A stretch of DNA of 64,000 bases from Acinetobacter calcoaceticus (lineage in GTDB: Bacteria; Pseudomonadota; Gammaproteobacteria; Pseudomonadales; Moraxellaceae). Of this stretch, positions 45,194 through 52,223 are shown piece after piece. The DNA lies in contig NZ_LS999521.1 in the NCBI RefSeq assembly GCF_900520355.1, positions 2,728,001-2,792,000 on the forward strand, read 5' to 3'. Numbering within the stretch: the stretch's first letter is position 1; the number at the start of each line of letters is the position of its first letter. Under the pieces are notes generated by a model that had not been told where the DNA came from, searched no databases, and saw nothing but the letters and a program-made list of their open reading frames with translations. The translations under genes were made by a program, and so were the position numbers.

Positions 45194-45940
45194 TTATACT
45201 GGCTTACTTAAAACTAGAATATATTTTCCATTTATAAGTTTCGAAATAGAATAATTTGTCATTACTTCAGAATACCCTTGTTCAATTAAAAAATTATTTA
45301 TAAGACTTTCATTTAACTCTTGCCCTTGCAAGTTAATACCGTTAAAAGGAAAATTCCACTCGTGCTCTAAAAATCCTGCTTTATTTATAAACGTAGTCTT
45401 TAGCTCACCATTTGTAAAATATGTCAATACATAAGGATGCCTACCAGCGTGCACCACCCCATTAAAGCTATTTGTAAACTTTCCTATTTGTTTAAAATCT
45501 GGACTTCCAATTAAATTCTTTTTATATGATTTGCATTTAATCATTTTCCCAACTGAATCCAACAATAATGTAGCTTCCATATAATCAGGTTTATATTCAT
45601 CCTCATTTATATATAATTTACTATGTGGTTTTGTTTTTATACTTACTGAGCCATAAGGTTCAATAATTATTGGTGGATCACACTTTTCAACCTCAAGTAT
45701 GTATTGTTTATCAAATACAGCATATATACCAAAAATAGGAACTGGTTTATCTTTATAGTTTATTAATACAATATCGTCAATTCTCTCTGCAGATAAAGAA
45801 TTCCAAGAACTATTATAATATGCAGCTACGGAGTTCCCTATTTTTTTCGAGGATAAAAGAATTGTTATTGCTGTTGATAAAACTATGATTAAAGGTCTAA
45901 AGTAGTCATCAACAATCTGAATTATTTCTGCTATATCCAT
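45194..45940 (-). CDS. Membrane-anchored prophage protein of unknown function
   Basis: This 248-residue protein has one membrane span at residues about 14-30 (FRPLIIVLSTAITILLS), then a soluble domain rich in beta strands. It contains PVPIFGIYAVFDKQYILEVE and PPIIIEPYGSVSIKTKPHSKLYI. A small, strongly predicted C-terminal domain ends in KYILVLSKPV. No family is recognised. It lies between integrase and SRAP on the opposite strand to both, the typical slot of lysogeny-expressed accessory genes. Exclusion of other phages is possible but unsupported. Base composition is more AT-rich than the tail genes. Confidence 0.6.
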   Translation of the reverse strand: MDIAEIIQIVDDYFRPLIIVLSTAITILLSSKKIGNSVAAYYNSSWNSLSAERIDDIVLINYKDKPVPIFGIYAVFDKQYILEVEKCDPPIIIEPYGSVSIKTKPHSKLYINEDEYKPDYMEATLLLDSVGKMIKCKSYKKNLIGSPDFKQIGKFTNSFNGVVHAGRHPYVLTYFTNGELKTTFINKAGFLEHEWNFPFNGINLQGQELNESLINNFLIEQGYSEVMTNYSISKLINGKYILVLSKPV

Positions 45941-47498: not shown

Positions 47499-47519
47499 TT
47501 GAATACGTTACAAATTCAA
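47499..47519 (+). promoter_or_regulatory. SOS-type operator (UmuDAb/DdrR box) of umuDC
   Basis: TTGAA-N11-TTCAA with 5-bp inverted arms, at 47499-47519, 15 bases before the umuD ATG. It fits the 21-bp palindrome known to bind UmuDAb upstream of error-prone polymerase genes in A. baumannii. Induction by DNA damage is expected. Confidence 0.65.
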
Positions 47520-47534
47520 GCTAGGGGATATTCT

Positions 47535-48032
47535 ATGAGCGAAATTGCACCATCCATTATCCAGATAAAACCGTACCTTACCCAAGGTATTGTTTTATCT
47601 GAGGCCTTATCTATCAAGCAAGTTGTTCCAACAACACACATGCTTGTGCCTTATGCTTTAGAGAAGATCAACGCTGGCTTTCCATCCCCTGCCCAAGATT
47701 ACATCGACAAAGCTCTCGATATGAACGAGCACTTAATAAAAAATGAAACTGCTACGTTTATTGTCAAAGTTGCTTCGCTTTCTATGTTAAATGCAGGCAT
47801 TGATATTGATGATGAACTAATTGTCGATCGCAGTCTCGATGCAAAACACGGTGATATTGTTGTTGCGCTTATTGATAATGATTTTACTGTTAAGCGTCTA
47901 ATGATCGATGAAAAAGGCCAATGGCTAAAAGCAGAAAATCCAGATTACAAAGATATTCATTTATTAGATGGTCAAGAGCTGCTTATTTGGGGCGTTGTCA
48001 CCTGCATCATTAAAATGATTAGAAACTCATGA
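47535..48032 (+). CDS. umuD: UmuD-like translesion polymerase subunit
   Basis: This is a 165-residue S24 autoprotease. The cleavage site Ala-Gly lies in [15 protein letters not shown] near residue 50. The catalytic Ser is in [11 protein letters not shown] (family GDSM here changed to SLSM), and the catalytic Lys in FTVKRL. After RecA-stimulated cleavage it joins UmuC to form DNA polymerase V. Ribosome-binding site AGGGGA selects ATG 47535; the earlier TTG at 47499 falls inside the operator. Its stop overlaps umuC (ATGA). It is normal size for UmuD, unlike the larger chromosomal UmuDAb. Confidence 0.9.
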
Positions 48033-49327
48033 AACATGAGAACAAAGTCTTTTTCTTGATTGACGTCAATAACATGTATGTTTCATGTGAGAGAGTCTTT
48101 GACCCAAGTTTGAACAATAAGCCTGTAATTGTTCTGAGCAATAATGACGGTTGCGCCGTGGCGCGCAGCAACGAATCCAAAGCCCTAAATATAAAAATGG
48201 GTGTGCCGTTATTCCAGATCAAAGATATTGTTCAACAACATAACGTAATCGTACTTTCAAGCAACTATGCAATGTACGCAGAAATGTCACGGCGCTTTCA
48301 TAAGATTCTTAGCTCGTACGTAACCGCAGAGGAAGTTGAACCTTATTCGATTGATGAGTGCTTTGTTGATTTCACCGCTTATGAAAAGAACTTTGATTTA
48401 GAAAAAGTTGGCCAAGAGATGCGTCAACAAATATGGAAATGGCTAGGTCTTCCAGTCTGCGTAGGTATCGGCAGAAGTAAAACAGAATCAAAGATTGCCA
48501 ATCATATAGCGAAAAAGAATGCTGGTTTTAACGGTGTTTGTGATTTAGTAAATATGGATCCTTGCAATAAAGAATATTACTTTTCACAGATCGATGTGGG
48601 CGAGGTTTGGGGAGTTGGCCGCAAGCATGCTAAAAAACTTCACAGCATGGGAGTTAGAAGTGTTTTAGATTTAGCCTGCACAGAGGCTAGAGAAATGCAG
48701 AGACAGTTTTCTATTGTTATGGCAAGGACGATAAACGAATTACAAGGCATCTCATGCATTGAAATTGAAGACACCCCACCCTCTAAAAAGCAAATAATAA
48801 AGTCATGTTCATTTGGTGCCAAAGTTACAGAGCTCTATGACCTAAAAGAAGCAATCGGGATGCATGCTCAAGAAGCCTGTAAAAGGCTAAGAGATGATGA
48901 GTCTCTATGCGGCTGTTTAATTGTTTTTGTTCAATCAAGCCCATTTGATGAAAGTGCTCCTTTTTATAATAAATCCATAAGTTATGCGTTTCCTGAGCCT
49001 ACCGATTGCGCCTTGGATTTTGTTAAGGCCGCAGTGGTTATGGTAAGCCACATATTTAAAGAAGGTATCAAATACAAAAAATGTGGCGTTGTGCTGACAT
49101 GCTTAGAGCCAAAATCAGGCCACACATATGGCCTTCTCACTGACTTTGAACAAATAGAAAAGAAAGAACAGCTAATGGAGGCCCTTGATAGTGTTCATAC
49201 AAGGTTCGGCAAGAAGAAGATAGGTATTGGGACTTGCTATGTGCCTAGCCGAAATTGGTCGATGTCTAGAGATAAGTTAAGCAATGATCCTTTTAGGTGG
49301 GATGAGTTATTGACAATTAAAAACTAA
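48029..49327 (+). CDS. umuC: Translesion DNA polymerase V catalytic subunit
   Basis: This 432-residue Y-family polymerase has catalytic acids in [19 protein letters not shown] (Asp) and [10 protein letters not shown] (Asp-Glu). The N-terminal block [27 protein letters not shown] is standard. The HhH finger ([21 protein letters not shown]) and the C-terminal little-finger domain are present. It copies damaged DNA at the cost of mutations. Carried on a prophage, it can make the host hypermutable. It is fully coupled with umuD. Confidence 0.96.
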
Positions 49328-49367: not shown

Positions 49368-50570
49368 ATGAACCAAATTGAACAGACTCAAAGTGATATT
49401 GATACATTAATAGGAGAAGTTGATAGTTTTTCAGCACTCATCCAGAATAAAGCAAAAGAATATAATCAAATGTATTCTGGAATAGGAATGAGTAATCCAT
49501 GGGATGCTGAAATAAAACCTTATATTGATAACTTTATTACAACTTACAAAATAAAAAAGAACTTATACTCATATGCAAGTCTTACAAAAATTAAAGATGA
49601 TTTAAACCGTATAGTAAATAAATTAATGAAACTACACGATTCCTTTGAATCAGATATACCCCTTGTAGAAGGTATTGATTTACTAAGAAAAATTCAATAT
49701 GAAACTAAAGAAACATTAAACCAATTTTATGAATATGGCACAGAGAACGAGTTATCTGAAACGGAATTTAATTATTTACTAGAAGAAATTTCAAGAATTA
49801 GGCCAGATATTACCAGCTCAATAAACAATGAATTATACAACAAACTAAATAAAACCAACAAAATAAAACTTTCCAAAAATTTAATAAAAATTTTTAACAA
49901 ATTAAATAATACTAAAACTAGTAATGACATTGAAGAAATCAATGACTTAGTAACCAATATTGAAAATATATTTCTATGGGTTGAACTAGATGACAAATCA
50001 AAAGAAATACAACAATCCCTAACACAAATGAGCGAAAATTCAATAATTTATAACATTTCACCCATAACAACAGGTTATGAAGATGAATGTGAAAAATTAA
50101 CAAAGAAAATAGATGCTCTAAATGTAATTATAATCATATTATTATGCTTATTAATTACAGTATTTTTAATCAAGATTATTGCACCATTTATTATTGCATT
50201 AATTCTTAAAGTTATGAAAGTAGATTTCAATTATTCTAATGATATTTACTCTTATGTTAGTTTCATTTCATTAATATTATCAATATCTGCTTTGACTGCT
50301 TATTTTGTAAGGGACAGAAATAGATTAATTAAAATTCATGATCAATATAAAATAAATGTTTTAGAACTTTCAACTTTACCTAAATACATGGGTGATTTAG
50401 ATCGAGTTCAAAAAAGACAATTATATATTGACCTTTCACATAATTTTTTCCGTGGGTCAGCACCTAATCAAGATAACAATAAAAACTCAAATAATGAATT
50501 AGAAGGATTATCAAAGTCCATAGCTGAACTTTCTAAAATAGTTTCAAATTTAAAAGGAATAATAAAATGA
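49368..50570 (+). CDS. Membrane coiled-coil protein, first gene of accessory pair
   Basis: This 400-residue protein is not recognised. Residues 1-250 are helical and coiled-coil rich, probably cytoplasmic, with several Asn/Lys-rich heptads. Two membrane segments follow at about 252-281 (NVIIIILLCLLITVFLIKII) and 295-315. The last 85 residues return to the cytoplasm with a charged tail (RGSAPNQDNNKNSNNELEG) and end in a short helix. It is much more AT-rich than neighbours and its stop overlaps the HNH gene as ATGA, so the two act together. The layout, a membrane sensor plus a nuclease, recalls abortive-infection systems. Confidence 0.6.
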   Translation: MNQIEQTQSDIDTLIGEVDSFSALIQNKAKEYNQMYSGIGMSNPWDAEIKPYIDNFITTYKIKKNLYSYASLTKIKDDLNRIVNKLMKLHDSFESDIPLVEGIDLLRKIQYETKETLNQFYEYGTENELSETEFNYLLEEISRIRPDITSSINNELYNKLNKTNKIKLSKNLIKIFNKLNNTKTSNDIEEINDLVTNIENIFLWVELDDKSKEIQQSLTQMSENSIIYNISPITTGYEDECEKLTKKIDALNVIIIILLCLLITVFLIKIIAPFIIALILKVMKVDFNYSNDIYSYVSFISLILSISALTAYFVRDRNRLIKIHDQYKINVLELSTLPKYMGDLDRVQKRQLYIDLSHNFFRGSAPNQDNNKNSNNELEGLSKSIAELSKIVSNLKGIIK

Positions 50571-51343
50571 AGTGTATATATTGTAAAAAAGAAGTAATAG
50601 GTAAAGAAAAAACTAATGAACATGTAATTCCTCAATGGATAATAAAAAAATTAGATATAAAAAAAAAGCAGTTATCTTTTACCTCAATATCAGAAAAGCT
50701 TGAAGTCTTTAAACCAACCACTCCTATTCCACATACTTTTACCCATAAAGTTTGTGCAACCTGTAATAATGGATGGTTATGTGATATTGATGAATCATGT
50801 AAAGATCTCCTAGAAGTTATGATAGATGGAAAGGAGGCTAAAGACTTTCTTAATCGAGAGAGTGTAGAAAAACTAAGAACTCTTATATATAAGATTTTTC
50901 TAAATTTCTTCGCTACTAGTCCAAGCTCTTTTAAAGAAAAAAAATTAAACTTTTATCATGATTTTTTTAAAACAAAAAAACCTCCAGAAAATGTCTACCT
51001 CTTTGTTACACCATTTATAAATGACAAAATTTTCAGTATGAATCATTTAGATGGATGGCAACAATTATATGAGAATCAAATTATTGATGATGATGGGTCA
51101 GGTTTAAGATTTAAATTTTATTTACAATTAGGTGAAACAGCTTTGGTTTTGTGCAGTTCGGGTGATAAAAGAAATATGATTGTTTACGATGAGAGATATT
51201 TAATCCCATTATATATAAGCCGTTTTTCTATACCTACAAATTTCGAACAGACTACACCTGACTTTCATCCAGCTCTAAGAACTGAAGTTAATCATTTTTT
51301 ATATGATTCTATTCGTGTTTCGAGAGCATTAATTTTTAAGTAA
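50567..51343 (+). CDS. HNH-type nuclease, second gene of accessory pair
   Basis: This 258-residue protein opens with a zinc/HNH core: C3-x2-C6, His19 in KTNEHVIPQW, and C63-x2-C66 in KVCATCNNGWL. This is the HNH_5-like arrangement CxxC, EHxIPxW, CxxCNNGW found in many uncharacterised defence proteins. The rest (residues 75-258) is helical then beta-rich and ends with no membrane span. It would cut DNA or RNA, but the metal-binding pattern gives no target. Its ATG overlaps the stop of the membrane protein. Low GC and location between umuC and lysis genes mark it as an accessory gene, possibly expressed in the lysogen. Confidence 0.7.
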   Translation: MKCIYCKKEVIGKEKTNEHVIPQWIIKKLDIKKKQLSFTSISEKLEVFKPTTPIPHTFTHKVCATCNNGWLCDIDESCKDLLEVMIDGKEAKDFLNRESVEKLRTLIYKIFLNFFATSPSSFKEKKLNFYHDFFKTKKPPENVYLFVTPFINDKIFSMNHLDGWQQLYENQIIDDDGSGLRFKFYLQLGETALVLCSSGDKRNMIVYDERYLIPLYISRFSIPTNFEQTTPDFHPALRTEVNHFLYDSIRVSRALIFK

Positions 51344-51400
51344 ACATTCACATATATTTTGCTAGACTAAAATTCGTCTAGCAAAATAATTTTTAATAGA

Positions 51401-51943
51401 TCATGAAATACGATTAGCAATCCAGCCATAAAAGAATTGCTCTTGCGTTGGATTTCGCTCACAGATTTCGATGTAGCGTTGACCTTGCATGATATTCAGC
51501 ACTCGAACTAATACCTTTTCGCCCTCTTTCCCACGTTTGGCCAAATAGGTCTTTAGAGCTCCCAAAGTTGTTGAGCCATAAACTCCATCAACAACAAGAT
51601 CAGGAAAACCAGCTTTACCTTGGTTATTCAGCAAGTTCAATGCACGTTGTAATAGTGGTTTAGTAAATCCGGTACCACAATTCACACCTGTATCTAAAAG
51701 CTCTTCAGCAACTAACGAGCTAATTACATTCACCTGATCAAACCGTGGATCTGTCCAGTACTGTTTTTTATAAATTGCCTTTGCAGTTTCAAGCGGCAAA
51801 TCCTTCATGTTTCCTTTAAATCCGTTTGCTCGAGCAACTGCTTCAGTAATACCGTATTTAGTAGCACCACCTCGATCAGCAGGGTTATTTACATAACCAC
51901 CTTCACGTTTAATAAGTTCTTCAAGATATTGTTCAATATTCAT
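51401..51943 (-). CDS. Phage endolysin, GH108 muramidase
   Basis: This 180-residue lysozyme cuts the glycan strand at the end of infection. The catalytic Glu is in LIKREGGYVNNPADRGGATKYGIT. A C-terminal peptidoglycan-binding part (PDLVVDGVYGSTTLGALKTYL) follows. The open frame extends upstream to 52066, but AAAGGAAA with ATG 51943 (MNIEQYLEE) gives the known length. No signal peptide, so export needs a holin. It is last of the lysis cassette and lies after a terminator that follows the holin-like genes. Confidence 0.93.
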   Translation of the reverse strand: MNIEQYLEELIKREGGYVNNPADRGGATKYGITEAVARANGFKGNMKDLPLETAKAIYKKQYWTDPRFDQVNVISSLVAEELLDTGVNCGTGFTKPLLQRALNLLNNQGKAGFPDLVVDGVYGSTTLGALKTYLAKRGKEGEKVLVRVLNIMQGQRYIEICERNPTQEQFFYGWIANRIS

Positions 51944-51962
51944 TTCAATTTCCTTTAGATGT

Positions 51963-51984
51963 AAAAAAAACCGCCCGAAGGCGG
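51963..51984 (-). terminator. UUCG-loop terminator between holin-like gene and endolysin
   Basis: On the minus strand CCGCC-TTCG-GGCGG, followed by eight T residues (complement 51963-51970). It would stop transcription before the endolysin unless read-through is arranged. Confidence 0.85.
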
Positions 51985-52001
51985 CATTTAAAGTTGAATA
52001 G

Positions 52002-52223
52002 TTACTGTTGATTTGAATCTTCAGTTTCTTTCTTTTGTTTATTGGTAGATCCAAAATAGAAGGCAATCACAGCACTTGATAACCCAAGCAACGTGCCTAG
52101 TGACACGTTTAATAAATCACGGTTTTTGTCTGGATATTCAATAAAGAACAAACCAAGAACACAGAGGAATGACATGGCAATAACCATGTACGCCAAATAT
52201 GTCCGAGTGTTTTCACTACTCAT
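52002..52223 (-). CDS. Small two-span phage membrane protein (holin or antiholin candidate)
   Basis: This 73-residue protein has two hydrophobic segments (YMVIAMSFLCVLGLFFIEY and LGTLLGLSSAVIAFYFG) and a charged tail, as in small holins or spanin-like helpers. AAGGGG ahead of the ATG at 52223 sets the start. It overlaps the gene upstream by 8 bp, so they are coupled. It is not matched to a named holin class with certainty. Confidence 0.65.
   Translation of the reverse strand: MSSENTRTYLAYMVIAMSFLCVLGLFFIEYPDKNRDLLNVSLGTLLGLSSAVIAFYFGSTNKQKKETEDSNQQ

Follow-up and report, generated by a model that had tools for sequence, protein, structure and literature searches.

Two AT-rich genes of an Acinetobacter calcoaceticus prophage, here called A and B, lie end to end in a hypervariable slot between a umuC-like gene and a lysozyme gene, downstream of an operator for the regulator UmuDAb. 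Gene A belongs to a membrane protein family found beside different enzymes in different loci, gene B encodes a protein with an HNH core, and the association of the two is facultative. It is very likely that the pair is cargo of a defence-rich prophage slot, and an anti-phage function is probable. The more specific explanation that we favour, at about even chances, is that A and B are interchangeable, DNA-damage-linked prophage defence cargo, in which A would anchor, sense or recruit and B would cut DNA. The original prediction of an anti-phage membrane protein and nuclease in a prophage slot holds for the setting and for the types of gene. It does not hold for a fixed two-gene system, since close relatives of B were found without A in four of four DNA contexts.

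The pair, its neighbours and the UmuDAb operator

The window, that is, the whole stretch of DNA analysed, comprises 64,000 nucleotides (positions 2,728,001 to 2,792,000 of NZ_LS999521.1). The coordinates, the protein sizes and the four-base ATGA overlap predicted for A and B all proved exact (Table 1). Gene A begins 40 bases after umuC, and a Shine-Dalgarno-like AAAGGA precedes the start of gene B. The GC content is 0.249 in gene A and 0.283 in gene B, compared to 0.383 in the window, and the two genes, described beforehand as AT-rich, have the lowest GC among the 45 script-called window ORFs of at least 150 aa. Their neighbours are also those predicted: Pfam recognises SRAP, UmuD (Peptidase_S24) and UmuC (IMS) on the left and a convergent GH108 lysozyme on the right. 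Further left, a 248-aa gene between the integrase and SRAP genes (45194-45940, minus strand) matches phrog_14996 at 1.2e-15.

Table 1. Positions in the window of genes A and B and of the elements around them
Feature	Position	Strand	Basis
UmuDAb operator match, exact, 15 bases 5' of umuD ATG	47499..47519	.	Published motif
umuD-like gene, Peptidase_S24, head of putative operon	47535..48032	+	Pfam E 3.2e-26
umuC-like Y-family polymerase gene, left border of slot	48029..49327	+	Pfam IMS E 4.9e-39; slot census
Gene A, 400-aa membrane protein with two transmembrane spans (2TM)	49368..50570	+	ORF call, spans, tail conservation, family
Gene B, predicted 258-aa HNH_5-type nuclease	50567..51343	+	ORF, invariant core, HNH_5 matches, dN/dS
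Intrinsic-terminator-like hairpin, 13 pairs, 3' of B, closing the putative umuD-umuC-A-B unit	51355..51388	.	
GH108 lysozyme gene, convergent, right border of slot	51401..52066	-	Pfam E 1.7e-24

Passages of PMC11332147 describe the UmuDAb operator as TTGA and TCAA arms with a GTnAC core. The pattern TTGA-N4-GTnAC-N4-TCAA occurs exactly once in the window (shuffle mean, 0.01), and the operator that marks membership of the UmuDAb regulon is thus present in the promoter region, at 47499-47519. There are six sites in the 3.93-Mb genome and none for the reversed control. Four of the exact matches lie beyond the two umuDC loci of the genome (G000:C1 at 1107568, 1527026, 1755906 and 2331700). Among the best 80 of 224 umuC loci, the operator is present in all 65 that have at least 600 bp of upstream sequence, 482-534 bases 5' of umuC; the other 15 have fewer than 600 bases upstream.

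Several features bear on transcription of the pair. On the plus strand, no terminator separates umuC from A; B is followed by one of 13 pairs. Promoter-like matches in the region are no commoner than in shuffles (23 vs 21.5). From this arrangement we infer that A and B would be cotranscribed with umuDC, under UmuDAb control. In the parts of PMC3978071 that deal with A. baumannii 17978, umuD and umuC of each operon, prophage ones included, are induced by mitomycin C.

The slot between the umuC and lysozyme genes

Stretches encoding the umuC protein were confirmed 224 times on viral contigs. The best 80 of these 224, together with five loci added as carriers of A or B (L003, L022, L023, L054 and L055), make up 85 slot loci, in which L054 and L153 are one and the same contig. 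Judged by the strand and length of the ORFs only, the slot has 63 layouts in the 85 loci. Eight of the best 80 of 224 have no ORF of at least 70 aa between umuC and lysozyme. In the same 80 loci, B is absent from the slot, and the A family is inside it in three (L153, L166 and L173). One more of the 80 has an A-family gene outside the slot, directly before SRAP (L152:1645-2820), and another contig has an extra A-family copy between SRAP and umuD (L015:9305-10450).

The slot elsewhere holds recognisable defence genes, which bears out the anti-phage setting that had been proposed. Five of 15 slot proteins, hand-picked without a random control, match PADLOC models at E<1e-20 (from L167, L195, L054, L219 and L178). 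They include a member of a NucC-like/DUF6602 cluster found in five loci (L167, 2.3e-38), Abi_2/PD-T4-5 (L195), FRG/PDC-S15 on the opposite strand (L054), Trypsin_2/PDC-S45 (L219, 6e-97) and an AbiL/AriA-like ATPase (L178). There was no PADLOC match at E<=0.01 for the slot proteins scanned from L154, L159, L161 and L022 (233 aa) or for the Mrr-type gene of L226. The hypervariability of the slot and the frequency of recognised defence genes in it are new here.

The genome that holds the window has a second umuDC locus, L226. There, AbiH separates SRAP from umuD (L226:8311-9633), and the Mrr-type nuclease gene is past umuC, on the opposite strand. Some 4 kb from umuC in this locus is a gene (L226:1373-2215) that we take to be OXA-beta-lactamase-like. 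In 39 of the 85 loci, the slot encodes proteins of 180-300 aa that carry the motif [FY]x[DN]W[RK] close to the N-terminus (e.g., L161:5582-6253, L022:6959-7657 and L055:3913-4707), many of them with N-terminal membrane spans. The largest BLAST cluster of these proteins covers 26 loci, and neither of the two that were scanned (L161 and L022) matched Pfam or PADLOC at E<=0.01.

A and B share their umuC-lysozyme slot with Acinetobacter prophage "moron" cargo; in passages of PMC3978071, three genes of A. baumannii prophage CP5 are labelled morons: umuD, rumB and one for an aspartate kinase. A literature search of titles and the starts of abstracts found none describing the pair, the A family, or the slot as a defence hotspot. 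The terms umuC, umuD and cargo are absent from PMC12421847, on A. baumannii prophages and defence, and the pair is unnamed in passages of PMC13092281, on DefensePredictor.

The position of the slot could also suggest that A and B are not defence genes and instead serve the lytic phase of the phage itself, by breaking down host DNA or timing lysis when the prophage is induced. The upstream UmuDAb operator and the adjoining lysozyme gene fit such a role, as does the induction by mitomycin C of 99% of cryptic prophage-region genes in A. baumannii 17978, given in passages of PMC3978071. However, the content of the slot varies from phage to phage, members of the A family occur outside the slot too, and the varying content together with the cargo-free slots indicates that these phages can do without slot cargo. 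We consider a lytic-phase role improbable.

The gene A family and its partners

Gene A encodes a helical N-terminus (residues 1-252), hydrophobic spans at about 253-271 and 296-314, and an 86-residue tail (315-400) after the second span. The two predicted spans are thus confirmed; their placement near the C-terminus has to be corrected, since the conserved tail comes after them. Residues 315-330 contain five K/R compared to two D/E, and by the positive-inside rule both termini would be in the cytoplasm. The tail is the most conserved part of the protein. Identity to the three closest relatives that differ in sequence (P0029-P0031) is 79-88% for the tail and 49-76% for residues 1-235; for 12 relatives further away, a comparison that leaves out L017 (13 aligned N-terminal residues), the values are 21-53% for the tail and 7-27% for residues 1-235. 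This pattern indicates that the family combines a shared tail with a variable N-terminus. The long coiled coil that had been proposed has moderate support. The 3.5-residue periodicity of residues 1-60 was reached by none of 500 shuffles and that of residues 60-235 by five of 500, but the periodicity is unexceptional for residues 50-130 (111 of 500), 130-235 (80 of 500) and 1-235 (44 of 500).

Database matches to A are weak. Pfam gave only sub-cut-off matches (Het-C 0.005, SUR7 0.019, DUF2207_C 0.1 and Imm70 0.22), as did PHROGs and NCBIfam (phrog_28290 0.18 and YknW 0.097). With no Pfam match above cut-off, membership of putAbiC or of a SLATT-type 2TM family was rejected; Pfam presumably contains SLATT models. 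Matches in the PDB were to coiled coils only (best E 0.018) and were taken as chance, and tblastn found no match in annotated phages. The sole match in annotated plasmids is on A. johnsonii plasmid NZ_CP121778.1 (37922-38188), to A residues 308-398 (38.5%, E 2e-9). This partial tail match suggests that plasmids may carry the family as well.

The A family is large and mostly from Acinetobacter, and its neighbouring enzymes differ from locus to locus. A direct protein search with A found nine proteins, the window's own cluster included. A profile made from these relatives and from members found in genome scans (A3) matches 45 of the 175 Acinetobacter species genomes and, in a sample of 292 further genomes from the order, four (5 of 293 with the window's own). 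As a guard against coiled-coil drift, a C-terminal-only profile was made from A residue 236 onward, using the window's sequence and its close relatives (10 sequences in all). Run on the 675 ORFs from the window and 47 loci, this profile picks up 41 of the 51 A-family ORFs and none of the 624 others. A profile of only the part after the second span recovers 34 of the 51 and nothing else. The two profiles therefore miss 10 and 17 family members.

Relatives of A adjoin TIR, SIR2, KAP and HNH genes, which again supports an anti-phage setting. The next downstream genes were listed for all 51 A-family ORFs; the partners scanned were hand-picked without a random control, and the fractions that follow are not unbiased. 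Above Pfam cut-offs, partners were recognised in six of 11 hand-picked loci, the window included: HNH (PF01844) in the same umuC slot (L015), putAbiC (L018), TIR (L019), KAP NTPase (L109), SIR2 (L112) and NA37 (L122). Sub-cut-off matches were found for a STAND-like NTPase 3' of the TIR gene (L019), a HATPase (L119) and the window's B itself, and no Pfam domain was found in the scanned partners at L020, L103 and L107. PADLOC, run on 12 hand-picked downstream partners, gave three strong matches: ThsB for the TIR protein (8e-40), PDC-S20 for the KAP NTPase (1e-76) and SIR2-pAgo models for the SIR2 protein (1.9e-63). Partners at L020 (276 aa), L103, L107, L115, L116 and L122 had no PADLOC match. 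In L019 (3845-7621), the A-family gene, the ThsB-like TIR gene and the STAND-like NTPase gene form a candidate three-gene defence locus, and in L112 (2542-6428) the A-family gene is followed by the gene for a 920-aa SIR2-domain protein.

The commonest recognised neighbour of the A family is a second 2TM protein of about 230-250 aa, in which no defence domain was recognised. Its profile has matches in 12 of the 48 sources, which comprise the window and 47 loci. Its gene is within 200 bp and on the same strand in eight loci (L020, L103, L105, L111, L117, L132, L133 and L138). Members of this second family near A-family genes are at L103:5247-5987, L105:5059-5757, L117:4616-5377, L138:3921-4631, L109:7844-8536 and L020:7726-8412, and in L133 and L111; in L109 the KAP NTPase gene is between the A-family gene and the second 2TM gene.

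Some members of the family might have a role other than defence. A small, putatively lipoprotein-like gene precedes five of them (L120, L121, L123, L127 and L130), and the gene downstream of the L113 member is common to L120 and L121. Together with L113, these lipoprotein-linked members probably occupy one fixed chromosomal site, which suggests a non-defence function for them.

Gene B, its pairing with A and a possible mechanism

A protein search with B found 27 proteins. The predicted zinc/HNH core (C3-x2-C6, H19, C63-x2-C66) is complete: an alignment of 23 sequences shows no variation at E18, H19, C63, C66, N67 and D75 and almost none at C3 and C6. Pfam HNH_5 (PF14279) is matched at E<=0.01 by 22 of the 23 (best, 9.6e-6). 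B resembles HNH_5 in its C-x2-C, E-H, C-x2-C-N and D core, all or nearly all of it invariant, and differs in that the window's B scores below the curated cut-off (17.4 bits vs 27.5) and has about 180 further residues with no Pfam match. B is thus a predicted nuclease. Against 93%-identical DNA of another contig, L001, dN is 0.041 and dS 0.251 (dN/dS about 0.16), indicating that the B protein is under purifying selection.

B is rare in the genus. Its profile matches two of 175 species genomes, the window and one weak 25-bit match. Matches in PHROGs and NCBIfam were weak only (best, phrog_38451 at 0.013), and there was none in annotated phages (tblastn) or annotated plasmids and no sequence relative in the PDB. 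A scan of GTDB contigs with the single sequence confirmed nothing. The profile found 12 loci there, at 21-32% identity, and 34 loci on viral contigs. Contexts were read for six of the 34 (L001, L022, L023, L024, L026 and L029) and for one of the 12 (L056).

One record (L002/L003) is identical to the window's A-B pair. Close relatives of B (42-91% identity) are in four other DNA contexts, L001, L022, L023 and L024, and in none of these does the A profile match any ORF (E<=10). In L022, B is directly 3' of umuC, and the window's lysozyme comes after one more gene. In L023 the order is umuC, a 72-aa ORF and then B, with a GH24-type lysozyme on the right side. In L024, B follows a 209-aa 2TM gene at the contig edge, and the window's lysozyme is next on the right. 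In L001, B follows a 148-aa gene, and the right flank shares with the window the terminator and part of the lysozyme end. The BLAST alignment with L001 starts at 50537, 5' of B; a remnant of A was considered there and rejected, as no frame of the three reads A's tail. Conversely, the B profile run on the 675 ORFs found only the window's B, so that none of the other 50 A-family ORFs has a B next to it. An obligate two-gene system is rejected on these two counts.

Homologous pairs do seem to recur. Identical contig counts and longest-contig values in the protein database suggest two further, diverged A+B pairs: P0030 with P0005 (11 contigs, longest 146074) and P0031 with P0002 (one contig of 3468). 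The A subfamily with the window-type N-terminus (the window, P0029, P0030 and P0031) would then be with B in three of four cases, two of them resting on these statistics. Recurrence of the pair, which the original prediction had proposed as a check, is suggested by the two diverged cases; in the four close contexts B is without A. Independent occurrence of the genes, which that prediction had set as one of its refutations, disposes of an obligate pair and leaves a facultative, modular one standing. The contexts that lack A, together with the varied partners of the A family, indicate that pairing is modular and not obligate.

These contexts also show B to be a slot cassette that can do without A. 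It is possible that A and B are independent cargo, with B a stand-alone nuclease defence gene, A a separate protein of superinfection-exclusion type, and the ATGA overlap a result of tight packing. Such independence fits the four contexts that lack A, in which relatives of B keep the HNH core residues, and the absence of B beside other A-family ORFs; the low dN/dS of B was also measured against an A-less context, L001. In contrast, the apparent pairing within the window-type subfamily argues for association, and elsewhere in the A family, too, the next gene overlaps or starts within a few bases (gaps of -4 to 6 in L103, L105, L107, L116, L118 and L020). We regard independence as possible and hold it as the less favoured explanation. 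Functional coupling is favoured by the translational overlap, the two presumed recurrences and the habit of the A family of adjoining effector genes, and we are evenly divided as to whether A and B work together.

The coupling could also be of a toxin-antitoxin-like kind, with one protein restraining the other. In its favour, the pair forms a small operon in which the gene for a putative nuclease overlaps that for a second protein. However, other phages keep B in the absence of A, so A is not an obligatory antitoxin, and we consider an arrangement of this kind highly improbable.

The original prediction could assign the pair to no named system, and in PADLOC 2.0.0 neither A nor B matches any model at E<=1. 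We take PADLOC to include models for Zorya. Homology of A to the MotAB-like motor ZorA/ZorB was rejected, with sub-cut-off, unrelated Pfam matches only and no PADLOC match at E<=1, and the same lack of a PADLOC match led us to reject B as a ZorE-type effector by sequence. Kiwa consists of KwaA, a membrane protein with four spans, and the effector KwaB. A-B resembles Kiwa in having two genes, for a membrane protein and a DNA-acting protein, and differs in that A has two spans and KwaA four. Homology to KwaA and KwaB was rejected, as PADLOC matched neither protein.

The closest likeness in architecture that we compared is to Zorya II (ZorA, ZorB and ZorE), which also combines a membrane component with a long cytoplasmic part and an HNH nuclease effector. 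A differs in being a single membrane protein with no ZorA-ZorB motor. According to passages of PMC11890865, the membrane complex of Zorya II guides ZorE, an HNH nickase, to the membrane in the course of infection, and the Zorya membrane core is combined with different effectors in different types.

Based on this analogy, we propose that A senses or anchors and that B cuts. A and B, at the end of the umuDC operon, would be under the UmuDAb operator of the Acinetobacter SOS response. DNA damage would release UmuDAb and increase expression of A and B. A would reside in the inner membrane, where its variable N-terminal helices might respond to an invading phage or to a disturbance of the envelope. 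The conserved tail of A, or proximity due to translational coupling, could then recruit or activate B, and B would nick or cut DNA so that the infection is stopped or the cell is killed. The A-less relatives of B in the four close contexts count against this explanation, because they indicate that B does not need A everywhere.

We speculate, tentatively and with less confidence than we have in the role of the pair itself, that the A family is an unnamed, Acinetobacter-centred immunity membrane module with exchangeable effectors. The 2TM region and tail would be its common part, and HNH, HNH_5, TIR, SIR2, KAP, NA37, putAbiC and the second 2TM protein its effectors. The prophage version would be inducible in the LexA-less DNA-damage response of these bacteria, through the UmuDAb operator and the umuDC slot.

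If this is true, a membrane protein family with members in 45 of the 175 Acinetobacter species genomes, whose window member has no PADLOC match, would be added to the known components of immunity, and such immunity would be tied to DNA damage. The umuC-to-lysozyme slot behind the UmuDAb operator would be a place to seek new Acinetobacter prophage defence genes. Prophage-borne defence also bears on phage therapy against Acinetobacter.
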